Source: Thiogranum sp.
GTDB taxonomy: Bacteria; Pseudomonadota; Gammaproteobacteria; DSM-19610
Direction of reading: 5' to 3'
DNA: 64,000 nt
Assembly: GCA_030148805.1 (NCBI GenBank)
Contig: JASBSS010000035.1
Coordinates: 124,001-188,000 of the forward strand
The notes below the pieces were generated by a model. It ran no database searches. It saw nothing but the letters and a program-made list of their open reading frames with translations, and had not been told where the DNA came from. Made by a program: the position numbers and the translations under genes. Shown here in pieces: positions 27,560 to 42,322 of this stretch. How positions within the stretch are numbered: the first letter of the stretch is position 1; every line of letters begins with the position of its first letter.

Positions 27560-28486
27560 CTAGAGTTGTGCCGGTTCACAGCGCAAGGCCGCGCCGATGG
27601 CCAACAGGCAATGCGCCAGTTCGTCCTCCTCGATGCCGGCCGGGATGTCGACGACCCCGGCGATATCCAGGACCTGCACCTCGATCCCGGTCAGTTGCAG
27701 CAACTGCTCGGTAAGCGCCCCGACGCCGCGCGGCGATGCGCACAGCGTCAATTGAGTGATGGGTGCCTGCTGGAAGTGACGGTCGTAATAATCCATCGAG
27801 CGTTGCAGTTCCAAGGCCAGTCGTTCGGCCAGTGCGGAGGAGTCGAGCAGTTGCGACCAGCCGAATTCCATGCCCCGGGCCAGATATAGCGTCGCGTCGC
27901 GGGTCAAGGTGATCAGGCCGTGGTTGGCGCCAAAGTGCAACAGTGCCTGCCCGTTGGCATCCTGCGGCACCCGCGCGGCGAGGTTGCGCAATGCCAGCTC
28001 CGGTATGTCGATCACGCTCAGCTCCACGCCCGCCTCCTGCAACAGCTGGGCGCGCTCCTCCACCACCGAGGCACGCGAGACCACGACGTACAGGCTCTCC
28101 TGCACGTTGCGCGCGCCACTGGGTGGTACGTCGAACACGTCCAGGACGGCGTCGTCGATATGGAAATCGATCAGATCGCGCACCTTCCAGCGAATGGCGG
28201 CTTTCAGCTCAGCCGCCGGCACCTCGGGCGCCTCCACCAACAGCAGCTGATAGTCTTGCGCCGCGAGCAACGTGGAACAGCGGGTTTTGTCCAGCCGGTA
28301 CTGGGCCACGGTCTTCTTCAGCAGCGCCGCCAGGCTCTGCTCACCTTCCAGCGGATGAAAGGCGCAATACTCCAGCACCGGTTTTTCGAGTTTGGCGTGG
28401 TCGACACAGGCCAGGGCGACGCCCTCGTCATCGGCCACCAGAGCACAGAGGCGACTGCTACGGGACTTGCTGTTGAGTCGAAACAC
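27560..28486 (-). CDS. mshI: MSHA biogenesis protein MshI (PilM-like)
   Basis: A 308-residue actin-fold protein of the PilM/MshI type, expected on the inner face of the membrane where it would bind the N-terminus of the PilN-like subunit. It has the family run of strands LCALVADDEGVALACVD, a central WKVRDLIDFHIDDAVLDVF and a late LELQRSMDYYDRHF. The GTG at 28486, after AAGGATCGAGG, gives a normal N-terminus; the frame stays open far upstream over the adhesin gene. In most MSHA operons mshI is first; here it is last. Confidence 0.8.
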   Translation of the reverse strand: MFRLNSKSRSSRLCALVADDEGVALACVDHAKLEKPVLEYCAFHPLEGEQSLAALLKKTVAQYRLDKTRCSTLLAAQDYQLLLVEAPEVPAAELKAAIRWKVRDLIDFHIDDAVLDVFDVPPSGARNVQESLYVVVSRASVVEERAQLLQEAGVELSVIDIPELALRNLAARVPQDANGQALLHFGANHGLITLTRDATLYLARGMEFGWSQLLDSSALAERLALELQRSMDYYDRHFQQAPITQLTLCASPRGVGALTEQLLQLTGIEVQVLDIAGVVDIPAGIEEDELAHCLLAIGAALRCEPAQL

Positions 28487-28539
28487 CCTCGATCCTTTGT
28501 CGATAAGTGCGCCAAGCGTCGCCGATGTTCGCGCCGCTG

Positions 28540-29886
28540 TCAATTCGCCACCTGTTCGCGCCAGCGCACCAGCGAGACCCCGCTGGCGCCGCCCCCGCCG
28601 CTCAGATAGACGTCGTTGAGATTTTCGCCCCCGGGCGCCGCCGCGCCGATGTAACTCCAGCTGACCCCGTCGTAGTGGATCAGGTTCCAGCCGTTGCGCT
28701 GCACCCCGACGGCCCAGCAGTCGGTCGGCAGGCTGCAGTGAACACCCTTGAGGTCGGCACGATGCTTGCCGCTTTTGAGCGAATTTTCTGTCCAACCGCT
28801 ACCGTTCCAATGCACCAGGACATAGTTGTTTTTTTCCCGGTCGCCGACCGCCCAGCAGTCGTCCACGGCCGCGCAGGACACTGCATTGAGGTTGGCGCGC
28901 GCCTTCTTCGGGGCCGGCTCCGTGACCGGCGACCAGGTGCCGCCGCTGTAACGCACAAAGAAATAATCGTTGCCGGAAAGCGCGCCCACGGCCCAACATT
29001 GATCGTCGGCCGGACAGTCGATGCCGTTGAGCGCGGACGCGCCGAACCCGGACGGATAGACCTGGGCCCAGGACAAGGAAGCATCGCGCACCGCACCCCA
29101 CTGGGACACCCCGAAGCAGGTGGCGCTGGTACAGGCCACATCGTTGAACTGGTTGAAGGGCATGAAGACCCAGGTATCCTGCCAGTTGGCGCCGTTCCAG
29201 CGTAACGCGGCTCCGAGTTGAAAGAAGGGTCCGATGGCCCGGTAGCCCACCGCCTGACAGGCCGTCGCCGTCAGCGGCGGGCAGGCGACGCCCTGGAGAT
29301 GTCGATTGGGGGTCACCGAGTACGGCGACCAGGCGGCGCCGTTCCAATGCAGCACGACGCTGTTGTCCCCGACCGCCCAGCAATCGTTGGCGTCGACGCA
29401 ATGCACGCTGTTGAGGTTTTGGGTGGTGACGCTGGCCACGGCGTTCCAGCTGGTGCCGTTCCAGCGCAGCATGGCGCCGTTGTCGCCGACCGCCCAGCCG
29501 TCGCTGCCGGCCAGCCGCAGATCCGCCTGCACCGTGCGTGCGGCGCTGCTCGCCCCCGGACTCAGGGGGGTGATGGTCGCACGGACCTCGATCCGGCAAT
29601 CGCCGCCGACCAGGAACGCATTGGTGAGCTCGAAACTGCCGCGGCCGACCGCGATGGAGCCCGATGGGCTGAGCGCGACACAGGCCGTGCCCGCGGCGTA
29701 GAGCGAGGAGGCGTATTCAACCCCCGATTCCGCCAGGAACAACGCCTCGACGGTATCCTGCTGCGCCGCGGTGTCGATCAAACCGGAGGCGCTCAAACGG
29801 TTCAGGGTCTGCGCCAGCGCCGCCATGACGACCAGAATGAACACCGCCCCGAGCAGGGTCACGACCCCTTGCTGCGAGCGGTTCAT
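28540..29886 (-). CDS. Minor pilin fused to cysteine-repeat propeller (MshP-like)
   Basis: A 448-residue protein. Residues 1-120 look like a PilX/MshP minor pilin: an uncleaved-type start QQGVVTLLGAVFILVVMAAL, one hydrophobic helix, then FLAESGVEYASSLYAAG. From about 125 to the end there are seven to eight repeats of roughly 40-50 residues with the core L-x2-V-x-C-x4-DCWAVG and a later LxWNGxxW. The first repeat lacks its opening strand and the last lacks CWAVG, as in a ring-closed beta propeller. Paired cysteines suggest disulfides in each blade. A tip adhesin is the likely role. ATG overlaps the stop of the upstream pilin gene. Confidence 0.7.
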   Translation of the reverse strand: MNRSQQGVVTLLGAVFILVVMAALAQTLNRLSASGLIDTAAQQDTVEALFLAESGVEYASSLYAAGTACVALSPSGSIAVGRGSFELTNAFLVGGDCRIEVRATITPLSPGASSAARTVQADLRLAGSDGWAVGDNGAMLRWNGTSWNAVASVTTQNLNSVHCVDANDCWAVGDNSVVLHWNGAAWSPYSVTPNRHLQGVACPPLTATACQAVGYRAIGPFFQLGAALRWNGANWQDTWVFMPFNQFNDVACTSATCFGVSQWGAVRDASLSWAQVYPSGFGASALNGIDCPADDQCWAVGALSGNDYFFVRYSGGTWSPVTEPAPKKARANLNAVSCAAVDDCWAVGDREKNNYVLVHWNGSGWTENSLKSGKHRADLKGVHCSLPTDCWAVGVQRNGWNLIHYDGVSWSYIGAAAPGGENLNDVYLSGGGGASGVSLVRWREQVAN

Positions 29887-30398
29887 GAGCGGTTCCTCAA
29901 TGCGACCCGGCCGCGTTGAGCGTAACGGTTGCCGTTGTCGAGCACCACTTCGAACTCGATGTAGGCGACATCCGCCGTGGTGCTGGCAGGCAGCCCGTCG
30001 CTGCGGTAATAGCTGAAACTGAGGCTGCTGAGCTGGTCGGCCAGGGTGAAGACGCCGCCCGGCAGGGTATCGTAGCTGATCTGCAGCAGCGGTGGCGCGG
30101 CGCTGAGCGAAACCGTGACGCCGTCGGTCTTGGTGAAGGTGATACTGTCGCCGGCGGTATTCACCGGGGTGGCGATGGCGAACACGCCGCCGCTGTTGTC
30201 GATAGCGCGCAGCTCCCTGGCGATGCGTTCGCTGGTGTAGCGCAGATTGTTGACCGTGTACAGCGCCGCATGGGTGTTGTTGTAGGCACGCGCGCCGTTG
30301 CTCAGATAAGGCGCGGCCACCGCCGCGAGCAGACCGAGCACGCTGAGGCCGATGACCAGCTCGATCAAACTGAAGCCTTGCAGCCGGCGGCGCGCCAT
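29883..30398 (-). CDS. Type IV minor pilin, MshO position
   Basis: A 171-residue prepilin. The cleavage site is intact: RRRLQG-FSLIELVIGLSVLGLL, with Glu5 of the mature protein. One hydrophobic helix is followed by a beta-rich head (DGVTVSLSAAPPLLQISYD). It probably forms part of the priming or tip complex of the MSHA pilus. It overlaps both neighbours by a few bases. Confidence 0.8.
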   Translation of the reverse strand: MARRRLQGFSLIELVIGLSVLGLLAAVAAPYLSNGARAYNNTHAALYTVNNLRYTSERIARELRAIDNSGGVFAIATPVNTAGDSITFTKTDGVTVSLSAAPPLLQISYDTLPGGVFTLADQLSSLSFSYYRSDGLPASTTADVAYIEFEVVLDNGNRYAQRGRVALRNRS

Positions 30399-30808
30399 CA
30401 GTAGTCCACCAGAACAAAAGTGACGGCGGCCCGCGGCTGGCCGGCCTGGTCCACGCTCACAGCCACCTGCTTGCACACGGCGGTACCGGGACAGGCGGCG
30501 CCGGCAAAGGGGGTGATGGTGGTGGTGCGGGTGTAGCCGGCGTAGTCGCCGGTGAGATTTTCCACCAGGTTGGTGGAAACCTCGGCATCGGCGTAGCCGC
30601 GATTACGGCGTATCGCCAGCAGGGTCTCGGCCCGCTCCTGCGCCAACTGGGTCGCGGTCTGAATGCGCTCGTCGCCCAACAGACCGATGCCCGCCTGACT
30701 GAACAGGCTGAACAGCGGCACCGAGGCGATGGCGACGATCAGCAGCACCGCCACCAGTTCGAGCAGGGTGAAGCCGCGCGCCGCCGGCTGTGGGGCGTAG
30801 CGCTTCAT
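30398..30808 (-). CDS. Type IV minor pilin, MshD position
   Basis: A 136-residue prepilin with cleavage site AARG-FTLLELVAVLLIVAIA. The head has the ERAETLLAIRRNRGYAD helix typical of PilV/GspI-like proteins and a CPGTAVCKQ cysteine pair. The ATG overlaps the stop of the preceding pilin gene, and its own TGA overlaps the next ATG. Confidence 0.8.
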   Translation of the reverse strand: MKRYAPQPAARGFTLLELVAVLLIVAIASVPLFSLFSQAGIGLLGDERIQTATQLAQERAETLLAIRRNRGYADAEVSTNLVENLTGDYAGYTRTTTITPFAGAACPGTAVCKQVAVSVDQAGQPRAAVTFVLVDY

Positions 30809-31269
30809 TTCACCTTGACCCAGCCGCTGACGGGCGAGACGCTGACCGTGGCGCTGTTGCCGGCGGCGCTGAGAACCCAGTCCCGCGGGGCGGTGATGAG
30901 CGCGCCGCTGGGCTCCAGGGGACGACCCAGGCTGTCGTAGTCGAGATTGGTGCCGCTCAAGGTGACACCGTCTGCCAGCTGGAAGCTTTGGCGGATGCCC
31001 TGGGGATCGGTGATCACGGCGCCGCCGGCGGTGATGGCGTAGCCGGTGGCGCTCTGGACTTCGACCCGCAGCCGGCGACCCTGACTGAGCGCCAGGCTCT
31101 GGGCGTGGCGCAGCGCGCGGGCCACTTCCTCGGCCTGCGGCCCCAGGGTGGCGCCGCCCGGCGACCAGCGCACGGCCAAGGTGGCGCCGAGCATCCCCAT
31201 CAGCAGCACAACCGCGACCAGCTCAAGGAGGGTGAAGCCGTTTTCTCGTTTGCCGCAACTGGGGCGCAT
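30805..31269 (-). CDS. Type IV minor pilin, GspH/FimT-like (MshC position)
   Basis: A 154-residue prepilin with cleavage site KRENG-FTLLELVAVVLLMGML. The pattern EVARALRHAQSLALSQGRRLRVEV is the GspH/FimT signature. It should be a low-abundance pilin near the pilus tip. The ATG at 31269 gives a normal 18-residue leader; the frame is open further upstream without a ribosome site. Confidence 0.82.
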   Translation of the reverse strand: MRPSCGKRENGFTLLELVAVVLLMGMLGATLAVRWSPGGATLGPQAEEVARALRHAQSLALSQGRRLRVEVQSATGYAITAGGAVITDPQGIRQSFQLADGVTLSGTNLDYDSLGRPLEPSGALITAPRDWVLSAAGNSATVSVSPVSGWVKVK

Positions 31270-31336
31270 TTCCCTGCCCGAAACAAAAAGGGGCGGGCAT
31301 CCGCCCACCCCGCCTGGTGTGCGTGTGACCGTTGGC

Positions 31337-31711
31337 CTACAGGATGCCACCGACGCAGCCGACCGTGTCGGTCGCGGCGGACGTCGCCGTCTGGCAGGTG
31401 GTGTCCGTATACGTGCCGATGGTATAGGTCTGATTGTTGATCACCACGTCGATGCCCGTGCCGCCGGCGTTCATTGAGACCTGTTGACCGCCGACAAAGT
31501 TGATCAGCTGATTGAGGCGCGGCAACGCTCTGAGTTCGGCGATGGCCATGGCGTGTCCGGTGCGCACGGCGGCGATCGAACCGTTCTGCGCGGCAGTGAG
31601 CGCGTCCTGGGACATGTTGACGAAGCGCGGCACCGCCATGGCGCCCAGCAGTGCCAGGATGACCAGCACCGCGACCAGTTCGATTAGAGTAAAACCGCCA
31701 TGTTTTTTCAT
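31337..31711 (-). CDS. mshA: Major MSHA-type pilin
   Basis: A 124-residue prepilin with a short basic leader MKKHGG cut before FTLIELVAVLVILALLGAMAVPRFVNM, the MshA/MshB pattern. A C-terminal disulfide loop (CQTATSAATDTVGC) closes the head. AGGAG lies before the ATG. An AT-rich gap of 268 bases upstream suggests its own strong promoter, fitting a major subunit. Only one such gene is seen, whereas many MSHA operons have both mshB and mshA. Confidence 0.82.
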   Translation of the reverse strand: MKKHGGFTLIELVAVLVILALLGAMAVPRFVNMSQDALTAAQNGSIAAVRTGHAMAIAELRALPRLNQLINFVGGQQVSMNAGGTGIDVVINNQTYTIGTYTDTTCQTATSAATDTVGCVGGIL

Positions 31712-31979
31712 CTGTTAATCTCCTGATTAAAGCCCGCTGCCCGCGCGTGGCTACCCTTGTATCGTCAGTTGCTCCTGAGGACTTGAGTTTCTGGGAAGAA
31801 CGGCTCTTCTCCTCAGAGGCCCTAGCGATGAATCTAACTAATTAATATTAAATGCATATGTAGTAATATAGAATTATAAATTAACCCACCAATATTGGCT
31901 TCTATAGAAAAAACCGCTTTTTTTCTGAGAAAGTCATTACAAATTGCGCAATTCGCGTTGGTCCTGACGTGGCGGCGTG
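31712..31979 (-). promoter_or_regulatory. AT-rich upstream region of the major pilin
   Basis: This gap in the pilus operon is far more AT-rich than its surroundings, mainly 31840-31930. On the minus strand it holds TTTATAATTC, a good -10 candidate, but no clean -35 at the right distance and no sigma-54 element. I infer an internal promoter for the pilin genes. Confidence 0.35.
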
Positions 31980-33200
31980 CTAGTGCAGCGCCACGCTGGC
32001 CAGATCCCACATCGGCAGGAAAATCCCGGCGGCGAGCAGGAACACCAGCCCGGCCAACACCAGCGTCAGGGTGGGTTCGATCGAGGCGCTGAGTTTTTCC
32101 ACCGCGTAATCCACTTCGGTGTCGTAATAGTCGGCGACTTCGCGTAGCAGCTCGTCGGTGGCCCCGGACTCTTCCCCCACTTGCAGCATCTGCAGCACCA
32201 GCGGGTCGAAAATGCCGGCGCTGGCGGCCGTCCTGCTGAGCGACTCGCCGCGCTCGATCCCATCGCGCATCGACAGCACGCGCTCCTGGATATAGTCGTT
32301 GCCCAGCGCGCGCGCCACCACCGACAGGCCGGTGACGATGGGGATGCCGGAAGCCTGCACCAGGGCGAACAGGCGGCTGAAGCGCGCCAGCGTCGCCCGA
32401 TACAGCACCCGGCCGATCAGCGGCAGCCGCAATTGCAGTTTATGCCAGCGATAACGCCCGTCTTCGGTGTTCAGGTAGAGGCGCGTGCCCACCGTCGCGG
32501 CGACCACCAGCGCCAGCAGCAATTCCCAGCGATGGACGGTGAAATCGGAGATTGCCACCAGGATGCGGGTGGGCAGCGGCAGGTCGGCGCCGAATTGGGC
32601 GAACATATTGGCGAACGCCGGGACCACCACCACATTGATGATGCCGATGGCGGCAACAATGGCCAGCAGCACGAACACCGGATAGCGGGTCGCCGACTTC
32701 ACCCGGTCCCGGGTGGTCTTCTCCCGCTGCAGATAGGTCGCCAGTTGACGGAAGATCAGGTCGAGCTGACCGCTGGTTTCACCCACCCTGACCAGGCTGA
32801 CGTAGAAGGCCGAGAAGATCTCCGGATATTGAGCCAGCGAGCTGGACAGATCGCGGCCCGACTCGAGGCTCTGCATCACCCCGCCAAGGCTGGTGGCCAG
32901 GGTGCGGTTGGCGCAATTGGCGCTCAGCCCGCCCAGCGCGCTGAGTATCGGGACACCGGCCTTGAGCAGGCTGTGCATTTGGCGGCTGAATTGGATCAGA
33001 TCGGACAGTTGCACCCGCGGCGGAAACAGCTCGCCGATGTCCATCGACATGCCGCTGGTCGGGGCCACCGGCTGGATATCCACCGGTGTCAGGCCACCCT
33101 CGATCAGGCGGGTCGCCGCGAGATCGCTGCTCGCGGCCTCGATGACGCCCTCGATGGCGTCGCCGCGCTGGCCGCGGGCTTTGTAGTGGAAAGAGGGCAT
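31980..33200 (-). CDS. mshG: MSHA platform protein MshG (GspF-like)
   Basis: A 406-residue inner-membrane platform of the PilC/GspF family. It has two repeated cytoplasmic domains (LIQFSRQMHSLLKAGVPIL and LARFSRLFALVQASGIPIV) and three membrane helices, the last near the C-terminus (LVLAGLVFLLAAGIFLPMW). It couples ATPase motion to pilin assembly. It follows mshE by six bases. Confidence 0.93.
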   Translation of the reverse strand: MPSFHYKARGQRGDAIEGVIEAASSDLAATRLIEGGLTPVDIQPVAPTSGMSMDIGELFPPRVQLSDLIQFSRQMHSLLKAGVPILSALGGLSANCANRTLATSLGGVMQSLESGRDLSSSLAQYPEIFSAFYVSLVRVGETSGQLDLIFRQLATYLQREKTTRDRVKSATRYPVFVLLAIVAAIGIINVVVVPAFANMFAQFGADLPLPTRILVAISDFTVHRWELLLALVVAATVGTRLYLNTEDGRYRWHKLQLRLPLIGRVLYRATLARFSRLFALVQASGIPIVTGLSVVARALGNDYIQERVLSMRDGIERGESLSRTAASAGIFDPLVLQMLQVGEESGATDELLREVADYYDTEVDYAVEKLSASIEPTLTLVLAGLVFLLAAGIFLPMWDLASVALH

Positions 33201-33206
33201 GGCCGG

Positions 33207-34916
33207 CTAGTCGCCCGCGCCGCCCAGGCGCATGACTTCTTCCAGGCTGGTCAGGCCCTCGCGGGCGTAGTCCAGCGCGTTGAGGATCAGCGGGCGATAG
33301 CCGGTCTGGGCGCGCGCCGCGCGCTCGAAATCTGCGGGGTTGTTGCGCCGCAGCGCGTCGGCCAGGGTGTAGTCGATTTCCAGCAGCTCGTAGACCCCCA
33401 TGCGACCGTGATAGCCAGTGTGATTGCATTGATTGCAACCCTCGCCGCGCTGAAAATCTGCGGTGGCGGCATCTTCGCCGTCGAGGTTTTTCAGCCAGGC
33501 GGTTTCACTGGCGTTGGGTGCCTGCGGCTGCTTGCAGTGGGCGCACAAGCGTCGAATCAGTCGCTGTGCCATGATCGCCTGAGTCGAGGCCGCCACCAGA
33601 TACGGTTCTACACCCATGTCGATCAAACGCATGGCAGTGCTCACCGCGTCATTGGTATGTAACGTCGACAGCACCAGGTGCCCGGTCAGGGCGGCGCGCA
33701 GGGCGATTTCTCCGGTCTCCAGGTCGCGCATCTCGCCCACCAGAATGATGTCCGGATCGAGGCGCAAGGCGGAGCGCAGGACGCGCGCGAAGCTCAGATC
33801 GATACGCGGATTGACCTGTACCTGGTTGACGCGGGGCAGCTGATACTCGACCGGATCCTCCACGGTGATGATTTTCTTCTGCGGTTTGTTCAGCTCGCTC
33901 AGGGCCGCATAAAGGGTGGTCGTCTTGCCGCTGCCGGTCGGCCCGGTGACCAGCACCAGCCCGTGCGGCTTGTGGATCAGCGCGCGCAGGCGGGCGAGCA
34001 TCGCCTCGGGCAGACCCAACTGGGGCAGTTTTCTGATCGACGACCCCTGATCGAGCAGACGCATCACGACCGTCTCGCCGGTTTGCGTGGGGATAGTGGC
34101 CAGACGCACGTCGATGTTCTTGTCCAGCACCCGCAGCGTGAAGCGCCCGTCCTGGGGGAGGCGGCGTTCGGAGATGTCGGCATCGGCCATCAGCTTGAGG
34201 CGCGAGACCACCGCCGGCGCGATCCGCGTGTCGTCCATCACGGTTTCGTGCAGCACGCCGTCGATGCGCCGGCGGATGCGCAGCACGTCTTCGTCTGGCT
34301 CGATGTGGATATCCGAGGCGTCGGCGCGTACCGCGTCCTCGAACACGGTCTGGATCAGCCGCACCACCGGCGCATCGCTCTGGCTGCTGGAGGCGCCCAG
34401 CGCGTGCAGATCGAAGGAGCTGTCGGCGAGGTCCTGGCCGACTTCGGTGGCCAGGGTGCGCAGTTGCTCGTGATTCTGGTAGAGCCGGTCGATGTTCTGC
34501 AACAGCATGCTCTCTTTCACGCAGGCGATCTGCACCGGTGATTTCAGAATGCGGACCAATTCATCGAACGCGAAAATATCGGTCGGATCGCCCATGCCCA
34601 CCAAAAGACCCGAGGCCGTTTCCTTGAGTATCAGCGCGCGATAGCGACGCGCATGGGTCTCGGGCAGGCGGCTGACCAGATCCGGGTCCAGATCGAAACG
34701 GCTGAGGTCGATATAAGGGATATCCAGCTGTTCGGAGAGCAGCTGCAGCAGTTTCTCCTCGTCGACGAAGCCGCTCTCGACCAACACCCGGCCCAGCTTG
34801 CGGCCACTCTTTTTCTGTTCGGCCAGCGCTTGCTGCAGCTGGCTCTCGGAAATCATTTTGTGCTCGACCAGCAGGTCGCCGATGCGCACACGTTTGCGAG
34901 AGGGGATGGCTGACAT
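33207..34916 (-). CDS. mshE: MSHA assembly ATPase MshE
   Basis: A 569-residue GspE/PilB-type ATPase. The N-terminal MshEN domain (RIGDLLVEHKMISESQLQQAL) is a known c-di-GMP-binding module in this family. The catalytic half has Walker A GPTGSGKTT, an Asp box, Walker B LDPDIILVGEMRD and a zinc motif CAHC...CNQC. It powers pilus extension. The ATG at 34916 gives the right N-terminus and lies 4 bases after the mshN stop. Confidence 0.95.
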   Translation of the reverse strand: MSAIPSRKRVRIGDLLVEHKMISESQLQQALAEQKKSGRKLGRVLVESGFVDEEKLLQLLSEQLDIPYIDLSRFDLDPDLVSRLPETHARRYRALILKETASGLLVGMGDPTDIFAFDELVRILKSPVQIACVKESMLLQNIDRLYQNHEQLRTLATEVGQDLADSSFDLHALGASSSQSDAPVVRLIQTVFEDAVRADASDIHIEPDEDVLRIRRRIDGVLHETVMDDTRIAPAVVSRLKLMADADISERRLPQDGRFTLRVLDKNIDVRLATIPTQTGETVVMRLLDQGSSIRKLPQLGLPEAMLARLRALIHKPHGLVLVTGPTGSGKTTTLYAALSELNKPQKKIITVEDPVEYQLPRVNQVQVNPRIDLSFARVLRSALRLDPDIILVGEMRDLETGEIALRAALTGHLVLSTLHTNDAVSTAMRLIDMGVEPYLVAASTQAIMAQRLIRRLCAHCKQPQAPNASETAWLKNLDGEDAATADFQRGEGCNQCNHTGYHGRMGVYELLEIDYTLADALRRNNPADFERAARAQTGYRPLILNALDYAREGLTSLEEVMRLGGAGD

Positions 34917-34920
34917 AGTG

Positions 34921-36069
34921 TTATCCCTTGGCCGGCATGGCGTGCGCGTCAAGCGCACGGATGCGTTGTTGGACATAGGCGTCGACCGAAGCCGGTAACG
35001 CATAACGGGCAGCTTCGCGGTAGGCAGCGAGGGCCGCGCCCAAACTTCCGCCATGCTCCAGCGCCACCCCCAAACCGGTCCACCACAGAGCCTGGGCCGG
35101 ATCCAGCTTCAGCGCGGCCTGGTAGGTCTTTGCCGCTTCGCCATAGCGCGCGAGCCGGTTGAACAACTCGGCGCGCAGCGCCAGCGTGCGGGCGTCATGG
35201 CTGCTGTTCACCGGAGCCAGTGCCTCGAGCGCTGCCTGCAAGGCGTTGCGCTGCGCCAGCAACCGCGCGTAGCGCCGCGCCAGGTCCGCGTCTCCCGGAG
35301 TCAGGTTGAGCCCGGCTGCCAGTACCGCTTCCGCTGCGGCGCTATCGCCTCGGGCGACCAGCAGCGCGGACAACTGCAGCCGCGCCCGTTTGTGGGCGGG
35401 TTCGGCCGCGAGCACCGCGGTGAGCAGCCGGCGCGCCGCACGCGGTTGGCGTTCAGCCAGTGATTGCTGCGCCTGATTGAAAAGCGTCGCCGTCTCCTGT
35501 GACGGGTCGGCCGTACTGCGCGCGACGGGAGGCAAGGGCTCCGGTTTCCCGGCTGCGGCGCCTGAAGAGATGGCCGTAGCCGGCGCCGTGCCTGCTGCGA
35601 AGGCACCCGGAGCGGATACCGCCAGGGCGGTTAACGCCGGCAGGGATGAAGCCGAAGCCGAAGCAGACGAAGCAGACGAAGCAGACGAAGCCGGCGCCGA
35701 TGCCGTCTCCCGTGCTGCCGCGACCGTCTGCGTCCGGTGTCGATCGGACGTCGCCGCGTCCGTGGATGTGGCCCCGGCTCGAGACCGGCGACTGTGGGGC
35801 GTTTGCGGCGGCAGCGCCAGGGACAGCGGCTGATGCACGGTGAGAACCGCCTCCGCGGTGCGCTGTCCGGGGTCCTGCCCCTGGCGCAGGAACAGGCCGG
35901 CGAAAAGGATCAGCGCCGCCAGGCCGGCGCCGAAGATCAGGGGATAGGCGATGTCCCTCCTCGCCGCCGGTACCTGCGCCTGCACGCCCCCGACGGCCGC
36001 CAGCGCCAGGTCGCTGTCCGGTCCGTGACGCCGATCCAGGTCACGCAACATTTGATTGATCACGCTCAT
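34921..36069 (-). CDS. mshN: MSHA biogenesis protein MshN (TPR)
   Basis: A 382-residue bitopic membrane protein. It starts MSVINQMLRDLDRRHG, the usual MshN N-terminus, has one membrane helix at about 41-62 and a long Ser/Ala/Pro-rich linker, then tetratricopeptide repeats from about residue 190 (NQAQQSLAERQPRAARRLL). The linker contains a simple Ser/Ala stretch coded by 9-base DNA repeats (35660-35686). It probably joins inner-membrane and outer-membrane parts. It overlaps mshM by four bases. Confidence 0.88.
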   Translation of the reverse strand: MSVINQMLRDLDRRHGPDSDLALAAVGGVQAQVPAARRDIAYPLIFGAGLAALILFAGLFLRQGQDPGQRTAEAVLTVHQPLSLALPPQTPHSRRSRAGATSTDAATSDRHRTQTVAAARETASAPASSASSASSASASASSLPALTALAVSAPGAFAAGTAPATAISSGAAAGKPEPLPPVARSTADPSQETATLFNQAQQSLAERQPRAARRLLTAVLAAEPAHKRARLQLSALLVARGDSAAAEAVLAAGLNLTPGDADLARRYARLLAQRNALQAALEALAPVNSSHDARTLALRAELFNRLARYGEAAKTYQAALKLDPAQALWWTGLGVALEHGGSLGAALAAYREAARYALPASVDAYVQQRIRALDAHAMPAKG

Positions 36070-36977
36070 AGACTGCAGGCCATCATCAGGCTTGCACCGG
36101 TCAACGCCAGCGTCCCGAGCAAGGTAGAGGCCGATTTCACCCAGCGCCGCGCCGGATGCCGGACCGCTTCGGTGTCCCTGAATGCGCTCAGCAGGTGCTT
36201 GCGACTGACGCGCTTTGCGTTGCAGCCGTAGGCGAGCATCAAGGATTTATGACATAGCAGATTGACCAGGCGCGGTACACCGCCGCTGGCTCGATACAGG
36301 CACCTCATGGCACGCCGGTCGTAGAGATCCGCGCCGCGATAACCGGCGATGCTCAAGCGATGGCGCACGTAGCGCTCCAGCGCCCCGGCGTCGAGGGGGC
36401 GCAATTGGTAGGAGAACGCAACTCGCTGCCTGAGCTGGCGGAATTCCTCGCGTTGCAGGCGACGGTCGAGTTCCGGCTGCGCGAACAACACCACTTGCAG
36501 CAGCTTGCGCTTCTCGGTCTCCAGGTTGGTGAGCAGGCGCAGGGCTTCCAGGCTGTCGTCGGGTATGGTCTGGGCCTCGTCGACCACCAGGACCACGCGG
36601 CGACCCTCGGCGCTGTATTGCGCCAAGCGTTCGTAGATCAACTGCAACAGTCTGTGCTGACCAATATTGCGAGCGAACTCGATCCGCAGTTCTCCGGCCA
36701 GCGCCATGCGCAGACCGGTCGGGTTGAGAAATGGGTTGGGGAGATAGGCGGTGACGGCGTGCGCCTGCAACAGGTTCAGCAGTTGCCGGCACAGCAGGGT
36801 TTTTCCGGTGCCGACCTCGCCGGTGACCTTGATGAAACCCTCGCCGTTGTGAAGCGCGACCAGCAGTACGTTGAGCGCCTCCTGATGACTGCCCTGATTA
36901 AAGAAAAAACCGGTATCCGGGGTCAGCGTGAAAGGCGGTTCCGACAACTGAAAATGTTGCAGATACATAACGCTCAA
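36066..36977 (-). CDS. mshM: MSHA biogenesis ATPase MshM (ExeA-like)
   Basis: A 303-residue AAA ATPase of the ExeA/GspA type. It opens with YLQHFQLSEPPFTLTPD, has Walker A GEVGTGKT near residues 53-60 and Walker B VVLVVDEAQ. The C-terminus ends in a single hydrophobic helix. It may help place the secretin through peptidoglycan. A second ATG three codons on (36968) is possible. Confidence 0.92.
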   Translation of the reverse strand: MSVMYLQHFQLSEPPFTLTPDTGFFFNQGSHQEALNVLLVALHNGEGFIKVTGEVGTGKTLLCRQLLNLLQAHAVTAYLPNPFLNPTGLRMALAGELRIEFARNIGQHRLLQLIYERLAQYSAEGRRVVLVVDEAQTIPDDSLEALRLLTNLETEKRKLLQVVLFAQPELDRRLQREEFRQLRQRVAFSYQLRPLDAGALERYVRHRLSIAGYRGADLYDRRAMRCLYRASGGVPRLVNLLCHKSLMLAYGCNAKRVSRKHLLSAFRDTEAVRHPARRWVKSASTLLGTLALTGASLMMACSL

Positions 36978-36983
36978 CCGCCT

Positions 36984-38681
36984 TCACGGCAGATCCATGT
37001 GGCGCACATCACGAAAGCGCTGCTGGGTCTGCTCCAGCTGTGTCGACCAGGCGCGCTCGCTGTCGACGACCACGGGTCGTAACAGAATGACCAGTTCGGT
37101 CTTGTTGGAAACCTTTCGGGTCTGCCGAAACAGGTGTCCGACCAGGGGCAGGTCACCAAGCAGCGGCGTGGCGCTGAGCTCGTCCTGGGTAAGGTCCTGC
37201 ATCAGGCCGCCGATGACCACCACCTGGCCGTTGCGCGCGCGCACCACGGTATCGGATTCCCGAATGGTGCTCGCGGCCAGCGGAAGGTTAAACTGGGTCT
37301 GGGTCGAGATCTTGACCTGCTTGTCGTCCTGTTTGACATCACTGATCGCCGGATGAACGTGTAGCGTGATGCCGCCCTCCTCGTCGATCTGCGGGGTCAC
37401 GTCCAGGGCCACGCCCGAGAAGAAGGGTGTCAGGGTAAGGTCGGCCGACTGATTCTGCACGCCGCTGGCGGTGTCGGTGTTGACGTCGACGTCGGTAATG
37501 AAATACCGATCCGTGCCCACCTTGATAATGGCCTTCTGGTTGTTGACCGTCGACACCCGCGGGCTCGACAGAACCTGCACGTCACCCTGGTTCTTCAACA
37601 GCTCCAGCAGCGCGTCGAAGTCACCGAGATGGGCCTCCAGGGCGAACACGCTGCCCAGTGCGTCGGCGGGCGCATCGTTGATGTTGCGCAGCGGCGCGGC
37701 CAGTCCGGTGCCGAACACACCCGCGGTGAGCTCCCGACTGCCGCCGCGCAGGTCGATCAGCGAACTCCAGTTGATACCTGCCTGAAACTGGTCGTTGAGG
37801 CGGACTTCGACGATTTTCGCTTCGATGATCACCTGCCGGTTCACCGACAGCTGCAGGCTTTCGAGATAATGCTGCACGTCGACCAGCTCGCGCGGCATCG
37901 CGCGAACCAGTACGGTACCGGAAAGCGGGTCGGCGATGATTTTGTGGCCGTCCTCTTCGCCGATCAGCAACCGCAGGGATTTCTCCAGATTGTTCCAGAA
38001 ATCGGTCTCCGAGCGGGTGGTCACCTGAGCGCCGGAAATGGTGTCCTGTTGTTGCTGTTGCGACGGACCGCCGGTTTGGGCGGGCGTGGGGGTCGCGCCG
38101 CGAGCGTTCGCTCCGCTCGTGTTGCCGCCTCCATTGTGGGCCTGGCTCACCTGGCCCGAACTCACCCGGGTTCTGGAGCCGCCCTTGCGTTCGATGTCCA
38201 GGTAGTTGACCTTGAAGACCTGAGAGCGCATCTTCGCCGGAAAGACTTGATAGATGCCCTGGCTGTAACGGTATTCGTAACCGTACACGTCGCGCACCGT
38301 GTCCATGACTTCGGTGGTGGTGACGTTCTTGAGGTTCAGTGTCAAGGTGCCGGAAACGTCGGGATGCACGATCATGTTGTCGCCGGTTCCCTGCACCAGA
38401 CTCATAAAGAATTCGCGCGCCGGCACCTCGTTGACGGATACATCGAATCTGGGCAGCAGTGGGCTCAATGCGCTGTCACCGCCGCTCGGCGACAACAGTG
38501 CCTGTTGTACCTCGGGGGGCGGAGTGGGCGCTGCCGCCGGTGCGGGCGTCTGCCATTCTCGCAGTGTCTGGTGGACCTGGGGAACGTCCGGTCTGTCCTT
38601 CTGCGGCATGGTCTGACAGGCGCCGAGCGACAGCACGGCCATAGAGAGCGCGATGCGCATGCTAGAGAACTTCCTGTTCAC
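36984..38681 (-). CDS. mshL: MSHA secretin MshL
   Basis: A 565-residue outer-membrane secretin. The GTG start overlaps the mshK stop (GTGA). It is a lipoprotein: lipobox LGAC with Cys22. N-domains follow, then a linker rich in Gly, Gln and Pro (NNGGG-like, QQQQQ), and the secretin core with DVTPQIDEEGGITLHVHP and VVIGGLMQDL, ending near VSNKTELVILLRPVVV. It forms the gated ring through which the pilus leaves. Confidence 0.94.
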   Translation of the reverse strand: MNRKFSSMRIALSMAVLSLGACQTMPQKDRPDVPQVHQTLREWQTPAPAAAPTPPPEVQQALLSPSGGDSALSPLLPRFDVSVNEVPAREFFMSLVQGTGDNMIVHPDVSGTLTLNLKNVTTTEVMDTVRDVYGYEYRYSQGIYQVFPAKMRSQVFKVNYLDIERKGGSRTRVSSGQVSQAHNGGGNTSGANARGATPTPAQTGGPSQQQQQDTISGAQVTTRSETDFWNNLEKSLRLLIGEEDGHKIIADPLSGTVLVRAMPRELVDVQHYLESLQLSVNRQVIIEAKIVEVRLNDQFQAGINWSSLIDLRGGSRELTAGVFGTGLAAPLRNINDAPADALGSVFALEAHLGDFDALLELLKNQGDVQVLSSPRVSTVNNQKAIIKVGTDRYFITDVDVNTDTASGVQNQSADLTLTPFFSGVALDVTPQIDEEGGITLHVHPAISDVKQDDKQVKISTQTQFNLPLAASTIRESDTVVRARNGQVVVIGGLMQDLTQDELSATPLLGDLPLVGHLFRQTRKVSNKTELVILLRPVVVDSERAWSTQLEQTQQRFRDVRHMDLP

Positions 38682-39025
38682 GGTGTCACCTTCTTGATAT
38701 TGTCGTTCCACAGGCGCAGCGTCAGTGAACCCTTGCCGGTGCGCAGAACCACGTGAGTGGGCTCGATGCTGAGTACTTTTGCCTCGCCGATGCGCGCGCC
38801 CTCGGTCACGCGCTCGCCATTGATCACCGCGACCCGCCGTTGCGGCGAGGAGAGTATCGATTGCAGTACCCAGGGCGAGGAGCCACCACTGGACGACTCG
38901 AAGAAACGCGTCGGGTCGGTCGGTCGCGTCGGGTCGGTCGGTCGCGTGGGGTCGTGCAGCGCCCAGGCCGGGGCGATGAGCGAACCGTTCAGCAGGTATA
39001 TCGCGAGCTTTGCCAACTTAGGCAT
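38678..39025 (-). CDS. mshK: MSHA biogenesis protein MshK
   Basis: A 115-residue periplasmic protein with a signal peptide (cut after AWA, residue 22). The mature N-terminus has a run of the hexapeptide DPTRPT. The rest, LQSILSSPQRRVAVINGE and VLRTGKGSLTLRLW, is an HlyD/GspC-like beta unit similar to PilP, which docks on the secretin. The ATG at 39025 overlaps mshJ. Confidence 0.8.
   Translation of the reverse strand: MPKLAKLAIYLLNGSLIAPAWALHDPTRPTDPTRPTDPTRFFESSSGGSSPWVLQSILSSPQRRVAVINGERVTEGARIGEAKVLSIEPTHVVLRTGKGSLTLRLWNDNIKKVTP
38907..38956. repeat. 18-base tandem repeat in mshK
   Basis: CGCGTCGGGTCGGTCGGT occurs twice exactly (38907-38924, 38925-38942) with a partial third copy. It encodes DPTRPT units. 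Copy number may vary by slippage without breaking the frame. Confidence 0.8.
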
Positions 39026-39671
39026 CCCCGGCCCCCAGCGTGTATAACTGCAGGCGTGTCTGTGCCTGCGGGTAACCGGTGGATTGAAAATTGATTTGTT
39101 GCCAGAAGAATTTCCACGGCAAGCTTTCCAGTTTCCGCAGATACCGCAGCACCTCAAGGTAATTGCCGTCGATCAGCATGTCGACCTGATAGCGTGTCAG
39201 ACCGGCTGCGTCGTTGTCGCTGGCCTCGGGGGCCACTTGCAGCGGCTCGCTGCTGGCCTTCAAGGAGGCCAGCTTCAAGCCGGAGCTGTTTTCCAGCAGG
39301 CGTTCGAGCACGTGTGCGGCTTGCGACGGCGCGACCAACACGCCCAGCTGACTGACGATTCGCTCATCCAGTGCCGCCAGTTGCGATTGCAGCTGCGCGC
39401 GCCGTTCGCCGCGCGAGCGCAGCAGCTCGTCGCTGTCGCCATAGGAGAGCAAACGGGCGTTCTGGCGCAATGCGTTGAGTTGGGTCTCGAGTTCCGCGAT
39501 ATGGGATTCGGCCACCTGCTGGGCCTTGAAGGCTGGCCGAAGCCACAGGGTATCGATCAACATGAACATGACCGCAATCACGGCGGTCATCAATAACAGG
39601 CGTTCGCGCAACTGCATGGCGTCGATGCGCAGCTGCCAGGCTTGCAGGCGCGATTTGAGCGTCGTTACCAT
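39018..39671 (-). CDS. mshJ: MSHA biogenesis protein MshJ (PilO-like)
   Basis: A 217-residue bitopic inner-membrane protein. It has a short cytoplasmic start, one membrane helix (LLLMTAVIAVMFMLIDTLWL), a coiled coil (about 55-120) and a ferredoxin-like end (LTRYQVDMLIDGNYLEVLRYLRKLE) as in PilO/GspM. It pairs with the PilN-like subunit. The ATG at 39671 overlaps that gene's 3' end. Confidence 0.85.
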   Translation of the reverse strand: MVTTLKSRLQAWQLRIDAMQLRERLLLMTAVIAVMFMLIDTLWLRPAFKAQQVAESHIAELETQLNALRQNARLLSYGDSDELLRSRGERRAQLQSQLAALDERIVSQLGVLVAPSQAAHVLERLLENSSGLKLASLKASSEPLQVAPEASDNDAAGLTRYQVDMLIDGNYLEVLRYLRKLESLPWKFFWQQINFQSTGYPQAQTRLQLYTLGAGDA

Positions 39672-40276
39672 GCGGGCGTCCCCTTGAAATTGCGCAGCAC
39701 GAATTGCAACTGGGGTTGGTCTGAGTCGAGGCGCGTTACCGACACCGTGGCAAAGGACTTCTTGCCGCCCTTCTCGGTGGCCTCCAGTTGTTGTAGATAG
39801 CGGGGCACGAGCCTGGCATCGAGGGCCAGCCCGCGTAACTCGACATGCTGTTCGTTGTCGATGGAAATGCCATCCAGCCACAGGCCGCTCAGGCGAAGCC
39901 CGGCCAGATTTTCGAACCAGGAGGCGAAACCGTTTTCCTGTTGCAGCAACAATTGGTCGAACTGGGTCAACAGACGATTACGCTGATCGATATTGGCGCG
40001 CAGCTCGGAAATCTGCTGGTCGATCGCCGCGGTGTCCGGGGTACGGCGCTTGGCTTCCAGCGTGCTGAGTTGCCCGCTTAGGTGGGCGACCTGTTGTTGC
40101 AACGATTGCGCCGCCTGGTCCATCCCCGCGAGCGTCCAGTGCGCGTGTACCGCGATCGCCAGCAGTAGCAGCGCAACCGCGCCGCCGATCATCAGCAGGG
40201 TGGCGGCGCCGAAGATTTTCTCCTGTTTGCGGAAGACCGGCTGATAGAGATTGATTTGCTGATACATGGCGCTCAT
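39665..40276 (-). CDS. PilN-like MSHA biogenesis protein
   Basis: A 203-residue bitopic membrane protein. The N-terminus MYQQINLYQPVFRKQEKIFGA is the PilN/MshI2 pattern that binds the PilM-like protein. A membrane helix (about 25-45), a coiled coil and a PilN head (LSGLWLDGISIDNEQHVELRGLA) follow. The ATG at 40276 overlaps the stop of the ABC ATPase gene; ATG 40267 is an alternative. Confidence 0.82.
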   Translation of the reverse strand: MSAMYQQINLYQPVFRKQEKIFGAATLLMIGGAVALLLLAIAVHAHWTLAGMDQAAQSLQQQVAHLSGQLSTLEAKRRTPDTAAIDQQISELRANIDQRNRLLTQFDQLLLQQENGFASWFENLAGLRLSGLWLDGISIDNEQHVELRGLALDARLVPRYLQQLEATEKGGKKSFATVSVTRLDSDQPQLQFVLRNFKGTPAW

Positions 40277-41015
40277 GCCGCACTGTGCCATTCATGCTTG
40301 CCGTCGATGGCGCGCAGATAAGCACGCTCCAGGTCATCGGCGTGAAAATGCTCACGGCATTCGCCGCAGCTGCCGACGAAGCGCACGCGGCCCTCGTGGA
40401 GTATCGCCAGCCGGTCACACAGCGCTTCCACGTCGTGCAGCAGATGCGTGGAGAAGAACAGGGTCAGTCCGGGATCCCGGTATTGTTGCAGATAGTCCTT
40501 GAACCGCGCGCGTGCCTGCGGGTCGAGACCGCTCGTCGGTTCGTCCAGCACCAGCAATGATCGCTGGCTGAGAAAGCACGCCGCCAGGCCAAGTTTCTGC
40601 GCCATGCCTTTTGAATAGGTGCGCACCGGGCGCGACAGCGCGGCTGGGTCGAAATCGAGTCGTCCCAGGATCCGCATCGTGGCATCCGGCTGGAGGCGAC
40701 GCCGTGCAGGCTCGCCATGGACTCCAGGAATTCCTGGCCGCTGAGATAATACGGTGGCGTGAAGCGTTCCGGCAGATAGGCCAGATGGCTGCGGGCGGCA
40801 TTGAGGCGGTGCTCGGTGTCAAAAATTTGTATGACGCCCCGTTCGATCTGACAAAAATCCAGCAGTGATCTGATCAGCGTGGTCTTTCCCGCGCCGTTCA
40901 TTCCCATCAGGGCGAAATATTCGCCAGGTTTTACCTGTAGATTTACGTGCTTAAGCACCGACCGGTCCTTGAAGCCCTTATCCAGGCGTTTGATGTCAAT
41001 GGCATTTTTTTGCAT
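40273..41015 (-). pseudogene. ABC transporter ATPase, frameshifted
   Basis: The N-terminal half (from 41015, MQKNAIDIKRLDKGF) has Walker A GMNGAGKT and runs to LHGVASSRMP. The C-terminal half (ending at 40273) is in another frame and has the signature TYSKGMAQKLGLA, Walker B LLVLDEPTSGLDP and the switch His in STHLL. The break is at about 40680-40690; one missing base (or two extra) explains it. All motifs are otherwise intact, so this is a recent mutation or a sequencing error. The stop overlaps the ATG of the pilN-like gene. No permease gene is beside it. ABC ATPases in pilus clusters exist (PilH of Myxococcus). Confidence 0.75.
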
Positions 41016-41030
41016 GGACAATAAACAAGC

Positions 41031-41088
41031 AAAAAACAGGCCGTCTTGTGACGGGTCACCGCAAAGCCCGCAGGTGCGGGCTTTGCGG
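41031..41088 (-). terminator. Terminator region after pyrD
   Basis: On the minus strand a 14-base perfect stem (41059-41072 with 41075-41088, CCGCAAAGCCCGCA) is followed by a second hairpin CCGTC-ACAA-GACGG (41041-41054) and then TTTTTT (41031-41036). The pair probably ends pyrD transcription before the ABC/MSHA operon. Confidence 0.7.
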
Positions 41089-41260
41089 GGTGTTCCAACG
41101 CGGAGGACGTTGGTATGACCGAGGGCCGCCCTGCGTTTCCGGCGGCAGGCGAAAGGATGCACGGTCGCGGCCGAAGTGCTCGTAATACATGTCAGAATAC
41201 CGTCCCTGGCTAAGAGGCGTTACCCATCACGCAATTAGCGCGCCAAGGCCGGATTTCGCT

Positions 41261-42217
41261 TCACGAGCAGGCGATAGGACCGTTGAGCTCCAGGGCGCCG
41301 GTCAGGGCGGCGGGATCGGGGAGATTATGGCGTTGCAGGTAGGCTAGGATGCCCGTGTTGATGCGCTGGCAGATCAGCGGGTCGTAAAACAACGCGGTAC
41401 CGACGCCGAGCGTCGTGGCGCCGGCGAGCAGAAACTCGATGGCATCCGTGGGGCCGGCGATTCCGCCCTGACCGATGATGGGGATGCCGTGGGGTTTGCA
41501 GACCTGATGGACCTGATGGACCTTGAGCAGGGCGATGGGCTTGATCGCCGGCCCGGACAGACCGGCTTGGTTGTTGCCGATGACCGGGCGGCGGGTTTCG
41601 CTGTCGATCGCCATTCCCATCAGGGTATTGATCACGGCGAAGCCGTCGCTGCCGGCATCGATACAGCGGCGCGCGTTTTCGGCAATATCGGTCTGATTGG
41701 GCGAAAGCTTGGTGATCAGCGGCTTTTGGGTCGCGCTGCGGCAGGCGGCCACCACCCGTGCCGACATGTCCGGATCGTTGCCGAATGCCACCCCGCCTTC
41801 CTTGACATTGGGGCAGGAGATATTGATTTCGATCGCGTCAATGGGTGAGTCGTCAAAACGGCGGGTGACCTCGTGGTATTCCTCGATCGTCGAACCGGAA
41901 ACATTGGCGATAAAGCGCGTTTCACTGAAATCCAGCGTCGGCAGTATCTCGCCCACCACGTGATCGACGCCGGGGTTCTGCAGACCGATCGCGTTGAGCA
42001 TTCCGGCCGGCGTTTCGTAGACCCGGTGGGGCTGATTGCCCAGGCGCGGCGCCAACGTGGTCCCCTTGAGACAGATGGCGCCCACGTCCCGATTGGAAAA
42101 ACCGCTCACGCGGGTGTACTCCTCGCCAAAACCCACGCAACCGGAAAGCAATACCAGGGGCGAGGCAAGCTGGAGGCCGCAGAAATCGACGGCGAGCGTG
42201 GCATTCGAATGGCTCAT
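41261..42217 (-). CDS. pyrD: Dihydroorotate dehydrogenase class 1B
   Basis: A 318-residue FMN enzyme of pyrimidine synthesis. It is soluble, with no N-terminal membrane helix. The catalytic base is Cys135 in NISCPNV, marking class 1, and the SGCVGFGEEY and GMLNAIGLQNPG runs fit class 1B. Class 1B enzymes normally need PyrK, an iron-sulfur/FAD partner that uses NAD. No pyrK lies in this window. Most gammaproteobacteria use the quinone-linked class 2 enzyme. The start at 42217 gives the normal N-terminus; the frame is open far upstream over trmL. Confidence 0.9.
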   Translation of the reverse strand: MSHSNATLAVDFCGLQLASPLVLLSGCVGFGEEYTRVSGFSNRDVGAICLKGTTLAPRLGNQPHRVYETPAGMLNAIGLQNPGVDHVVGEILPTLDFSETRFIANVSGSTIEEYHEVTRRFDDSPIDAIEINISCPNVKEGGVAFGNDPDMSARVVAACRSATQKPLITKLSPNQTDIAENARRCIDAGSDGFAVINTLMGMAIDSETRRPVIGNNQAGLSGPAIKPIALLKVHQVHQVCKPHGIPIIGQGGIAGPTDAIEFLLAGATTLGVGTALFYDPLICQRINTGILAYLQRHNLPDPAALTGALELNGPIACS

Positions 42218-42322
42218 GGGTTGTGTATTTGACCTCAAGCGCGGGCGAAAGAAAAGCGCGCCGCGCAGTGGCGCCAGTGGGCGCCAGTGGGCGTAAGCGG
42301 CGCTGCGCGCTACACTGGCGGC

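Follow-up and report, generated by a model that had tools for sequence, protein, structure and literature searches.

The window, which is the whole 64,000 nt stretch of DNA analysed (G000:C30:124001-188000, from a genome of 3.78 Mb in 38 contigs that is 95.9% complete), raises the question of why a broken ABC ATPase gene with no permease beside it stands at the head of an MSHA-type pilus operon. The gene (41015-40273, minus strand) lies between pyrD (41261-42220, minus strand) and the operon (27560-40276, minus strand), which encodes PilN, PilO, MshK, MshL, MshM, MshN, MshE, MshG, prepilins, an MshQ-like and a PilM-like protein, several of these names being the ones we presume to apply. The next operon gene after the ABC gene is PilN-like (39665-40276, minus strand; PF05137). 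The MshQ-like protein (28540-29892, minus strand) has a prepilin-like N terminus and repeated CWAVGD-type motifs and may be a tip protein of the MSHA pilus with a propeller-like form. We compared the locus across 95 genomes, made up of the window's own genome and others of the same genus, the same family and the same class. In our judgement the ABC gene is very probably the stranded relic of a second filament-like cluster with an ABC exporter, most of which has been deleted.

A single -1 shift near 40690 divides the reading frame of the ABC gene in two. The N-terminal half (40690-41015, minus strand), in the frame of the start codon, is 90% identical to the intact copy in G014, a genome of the same genus, and contains Walker A (GMNGAGKT). 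The C-terminal half (40273-40692, minus strand) is 78-79% identical to the same copy and is read in a frame whose codons start one base earlier; it contains a YSKGM signature, Walker B (LLVLDEP) and an H loop (STH), which are the motifs we take these four stretches to be. Each half matches the ABC transporter ATPase domain (ABC_tran, PF00005; 1.2e-11 for the N half and 3.5e-7 for the C half), both above the 25-bit cut-off but in different frames. The frameshift site (40687-40698, minus strand) has no single-base run longer than 3, and the distance between the SLH and RLDF codons, counted by eye, is 41 nt in the window and 42 nt in G014. The first stop in the start-codon frame is at 40466 and the last upstream stop in the C frame is at 40821, and a single -1 step anywhere in 40821-40466 joins the halves without a stop. 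At its 3' end the gene overlaps the PilN-like gene by ATGA (40273-40276). The sequence-only reading of this DNA had described one frameshift, nucleotide-binding motifs that are all kept across the two halves, and the ATGA overlap, and all three descriptions were borne out.

In G014 and in a second genome of the genus, G002, the ABC gene is the last gene of a second type IV filament-like cluster of about 14 kb, which lies between pyrD and the MSHA operon. The cluster begins with an ExeA/MshM-like ATPase, an MshL-like secretin, an MshN-like protein, E and F (T2SSF, 1.4e-54), and continues with a 512-aa PilM/PilN-like protein, PilO-like and PilP-like proteins and two prepilin-like proteins of 388 and 241 aa. 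It ends with an ABC-2 permease (PF12679, 1.3e-7), a 249-aa partner, a prepilin, a hairpin and the ABC gene, after which comes the MSHA PilN. The 512-aa protein, which has no Pfam match, would be PilM/PilN-like to judge by its size, its place and its central hydrophobic stretch. There is no Pfam or NCBIfam match for the partner and no NCBIfam match for the permease. The order of the genes from E to ABC is similar in G071, a genome of another family, and an ABC-linked type IV filament cluster is present in G014, G002 and G071 but not in the window. The arrangement gpmI-secB-gpsA-trmL-pyrD-[cluster]-MSHA is shared by G014, G002 and, without the ABC module, G008; in the window it reads pyrD-ABC-MSHA. 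In G009 (L199; G009:C118, 6475-18783) the second cluster likewise follows pyrD, and the MSHA and ABC genes are missing there, with ntrC/ntrB/glnA directly adjoining the cluster; deletions around this locus therefore run both ways.

The distance from the pyrD stop to the ABC start is 13,977 nt in G014 and 245 nt in the window, and about 13.7 kb is missing from the window relative to the cluster-bearing relatives. Positions 41330-41126 align with G014 DNA that runs from the end of pyrD through the intergenic stretch into about the first 21 codons of the first cluster gene. They include a 5' stub (41127-41190, minus strand; about 21 codons, with its ATG at 41190) of the ExeA/MshM-like ATPase. The stub is followed by the deletion junction, about 40 nt (41089-41126, minus strand) with no convincing match in the G014 cluster, and then by a 13-pair hairpin (41059-41088, minus strand). 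G014 and G002 have a hairpin of similar sequence between their last prepilin gene and the ABC gene, and from the hairpin on the window DNA aligns with the G014 DNA immediately 5' of the ABC gene. With both alignments in place, both ends of the cluster are still visible in the window, as the footprint of the deletion.

The permease and the partner were found in the same 13 of the 95 genomes, and all 13 also carry the ABC orthologue, for which we set the cut at E <= 2.6e-27 (the next matches, from 1.7e-24, lie in longer frames). These 13 are the strong matches to the permease; a weak one in G045 (2.9e-5) was left out. Outside the 13, the ABC orthologue occurs at this cut only in the window genome and in G015, where the contig with the cluster breaks off within the 388-aa prepilin-like gene and the contig with ABC begins within the ABC gene. 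The PilM/PilN-like protein is present in 21 of the 95 genomes, the window's own not among them, and three genomes of the same genus (G008, G009 and G010) have it while the permease and partner are absent. Outside the genus there are nine ABC orthologue loci, six with genes of the second cluster and three (G051, G075 and G085) with none of the genes tested. The ABC gene is on a different contig from the permease in G051 and G075 and about 80 kb from it in G085 (G085:C35); in these three genomes, co-occurrence of permease and ABC gene is stricter than linkage.

The window's own genome, at 95.9% completeness, yielded no partner in a genome-wide search and no permease of this family in a profile search. 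The cognate permease that a functional ABC-2 exporter calls for was thus not found in G000, although at this completeness the assembly could lack a copy of the cluster located elsewhere. Two weak matches to the permease profile proved to be other ABC-2 permeases, each beside its own ATPase gene. It had been noted from the sequence that no permease is beside the ABC gene, and a distant one had been suggested as something to look for. The permease is indeed absent at the locus, but in relatives it sits in the adjacent second cluster, deleted here, so the 'missing' permease is that neighbour's; the search for a distant one came back empty.

There is a sigma-54-like -24/-12 element, GGCCTGTTTTTTGCTT (41027-41042, minus strand), which ends 11 nt before the ABC start codon. 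All 11 same-genus genomes that are readable here have the element, GG-N10-GC with TTGC, conserved 5' of ABC or of PilN (the upstream region of G015 is unreadable). Its distance to the ABC start is about 30 nt in the window, G014, G002, G006, G016 and the G001 stub, and in G012, G005, G004, G007 and G008 it is found 206-295 nt 5' of PilN. The pattern occurs once in the window against an expectation of 0.01, a figure that is descriptive only because the pattern was drawn from these very sites. RpoN is encoded in the same genome, and by pattern, conservation and the presence of rpoN the element is a predicted sigma-54 promoter at the sequence level. No sigma-70-type promoter pattern was found in 40200-41300. 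The usual spacing of sigma-54 promoters would put the transcription start 1-2 nt before the ABC start codon. Such a start leaves almost no leader, so the promoter may suit PilN onward better than ABC, and the near-leaderless start would speak against a simple operon reading for the ABC gene.

Directly 3' of the same element there are remnants of the ABC gene in three further species: about 80 broken codons in G001 and about 10 each in G012 and G008. Their alignment scores were 105, 58 and 54, respectively, against shuffle maxima of 28, 28 and 27. No convincing stub was found 3' of the element in G004, G007 or, with a score of 29 and shuffles reaching 28, G005. The presence of such remnants in three species besides that of the window indicates repeated loss of the ABC gene. 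Full clusters are spread across a tree built from five MSHA proteins; the scatter and the stubs fit repeated loss, which would be simpler than repeated gain at the same place.

Taken together, the data are consistent with the following history. In an ancestor, the space between pyrD and the MSHA operon would have held the cluster of a second type IV filament-like machine, with an ABC-2 exporter of its own consisting of the ATPase, a membrane permease and a membrane-anchored helical partner. The ATPase, which presumably energised the permease of the cluster, would have been encoded by the gene that closed the cluster, although the MSHA operon's sigma-54-like promoter lay on its 5' side. A deletion would then have taken about 13.7 kb, starting near codon 21 of the first cluster gene and stopping just short of this promoter, and would have spared only the ATPase gene. 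Had it reached further, the MSHA promoter would have gone too, and we infer that retention of this promoter fixed where the deletion stopped; the position of the ABC gene, with the conserved element on one side and PilN on the other, is probably what spared it. The ATPase would have been left partnerless, and a single-base frameshift would since have broken its gene, recently.

How recently depends on the frameshift itself. Between the window and G014 copies of the ABC gene dN/dS is 0.138, so the halves are on average still constrained and decay is slight. Over 188 columns invariant in four outgroups there are 12 window-only and 7 G014-only changes in the ABC gene; the corresponding values are 0 and 5 for PilN (101 columns), 5 and 7 for PilO (127) and 3 and 2 for pyrD (252). 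The excess in the ABC gene is small and suggestive only. From these substitution patterns the frameshift would be young, with relaxed selection at most brief, or else a consensus error. If it were an error, the orphan ATPase would be an intact protein that the cell still makes, in the service of another permease or of the MSHA machine. The low dN/dS and few window-specific changes favour this explanation, as do the intact motifs, the position of the gene, by layout, still inside the MSHA transcription unit and the assembly of the genome in 38 contigs. We nevertheless consider it unlikely. There is no homopolymer longer than 3 near the break, and all 21 other window genes compared with relatives have a single open frame, so the contig is not generally indel-ridden. 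Additionally, six other genomes of the genus have MSHA without an intact ABC gene, and the genome has neither partner nor permease of this family.

It would also be conceivable that the ABC ATPase truly belongs to the MSHA pilus, as its PilH-like ATPase. PilN was matched in 32 of the 95 genomes, 12 of them of the same genus with the window included. Close matches to the C half lie directly 5' of PilN in G014 (79%) and in G006, G015, G016 and G002 (66-72%), each in one open frame (the G015 contig begins inside the gene). The ATGA overlap or tight spacing with PilN and the promoter-like element common to both genes are what an MSHA component would lead one to expect, and the placing of the ABC gene in the MSHA transcription unit by layout stands, given the element 5' of it and the close spacing to PilN in relatives. 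However, there is no intact full-length ABC gene 5' of PilN in 7 of the 12 same-genus genomes: the window, and G001, G004, G005, G007, G008 and G012, in which it is missing or a stub. Outside the genus the MSHA PilN adjoins none of the nine orthologue loci. On comparative grounds the ATPase does not look like an MSHA component, and a PilH-like role in the MSHA pilus is highly improbable. A C-half match in G030 (L070, 3090-3824) was reported with one internal TAG, which is apparently the gene's own end, so that the protein is probably just slightly shorter.

Programmed -1 frameshifting or slippage that yields a full ATPase, which had been put forward for testing, is very improbable: a single -1 step does connect the halves without a stop, but the joinable stretch 40821-40466, junction included, contains no heptamer of the form X XXY YYZ, and the intact copies in same-genus relatives use one reading frame throughout, with no conserved shift.

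The parent cluster of the stranded gene extends well beyond this genus. When genome contigs were scanned with the partner alignment, 163 relatives were obtained, of which 80 were kept, mostly from Beta- and Gammaproteobacteria with one labelled Desulfobulbaceae; the cluster is widespread in the first two groups. The permease is present at 78 of the 80 partner loci. An ABC orthologue (at least 40%) is within reach at 34 of the 80, and at 29 of the 59 loci that have at least 4.5 kb after the partner, so by sequence ABC linkage to the partner and permease is not universal. The AlphaFold model of the partner (mean pLDDT 86) has one N-terminal helix and a helical solenoid, and the partner is predicted to be a membrane-anchored helical solenoid; Foldseek gave only weak TPR-type resemblance, with nothing at E<=0.001. 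The permease had no match among solved structures at E<=0.1. No description of the parent cluster was found in the literature covered, subscription journals being outside it. We tentatively suggest, as a possibility that we would not rate higher, that the parent cluster encodes an undescribed type IV filament machine of many Beta- and Gammaproteobacteria with a dedicated ABC-2 exporter, which would supply the filament with a substrate, either a prepilin or a cargo of lipid or peptide. If so, the scattered losses in the genus would be natural knock-outs that reveal which parts depend on each other. What had been a lone pseudogene can be recast as a deletion scar, which would account both for an ATPase without a permease in a pilus operon and for its break, and which points to a widespread, apparently unstudied pairing of type IV filament and ABC-2 exporter, the parts of which disappear together when deletions occur in nature.

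The lost cluster resembles the MSHA pilus operon in having E, F, secretin, ExeA/MshM-like ATPase, MshN-like and PilO-like genes, with identities of 41% to MshE, 32% to MshG, about 30% to MshL and 47% to MshM. Unlike MSHA, it adds the ABC-2 permease, the helical membrane partner and the ABC ATPase, and its 388-aa and 241-aa prepilin-like proteins share a GRLPW stretch. The ATPase resembles those of ABC-2 exporters of the DrrA/NosF/ABCA type: the intact G014 protein matches NosF at 1.3e-30 and ABCA-type domains more strongly, and the best model for the C half is DrrA, below its curated cut-off (neither half reached an NCBIfam cut-off among the matches listed). It differs from that type in its linkage to filament genes. 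The closest parallel to such linkage is PilG-PilH-PilI of Myxococcus xanthus, an ABC-type trio encoded among type IV pilus genes. PilGHI is essential for pilin translocation across the inner membrane according to PMC3724824, and supporting experimental data for such transport are not available according to PMC6060248. The module described here differs in being part of a separate, MSHA-like machine that includes a 512-aa PilM/PilN-like protein, and in having been deleted in the window except for the broken ATPase. We regard the comparison as a fair analogy, and on the PilGHI model (PMC3724824, PMC6060248) the ABC module may act on a filament-related substrate, by exporting or by inserting it. 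What PilGHI-like ABC modules do in pili, a long-standing question, would in this way become testable in another lineage.
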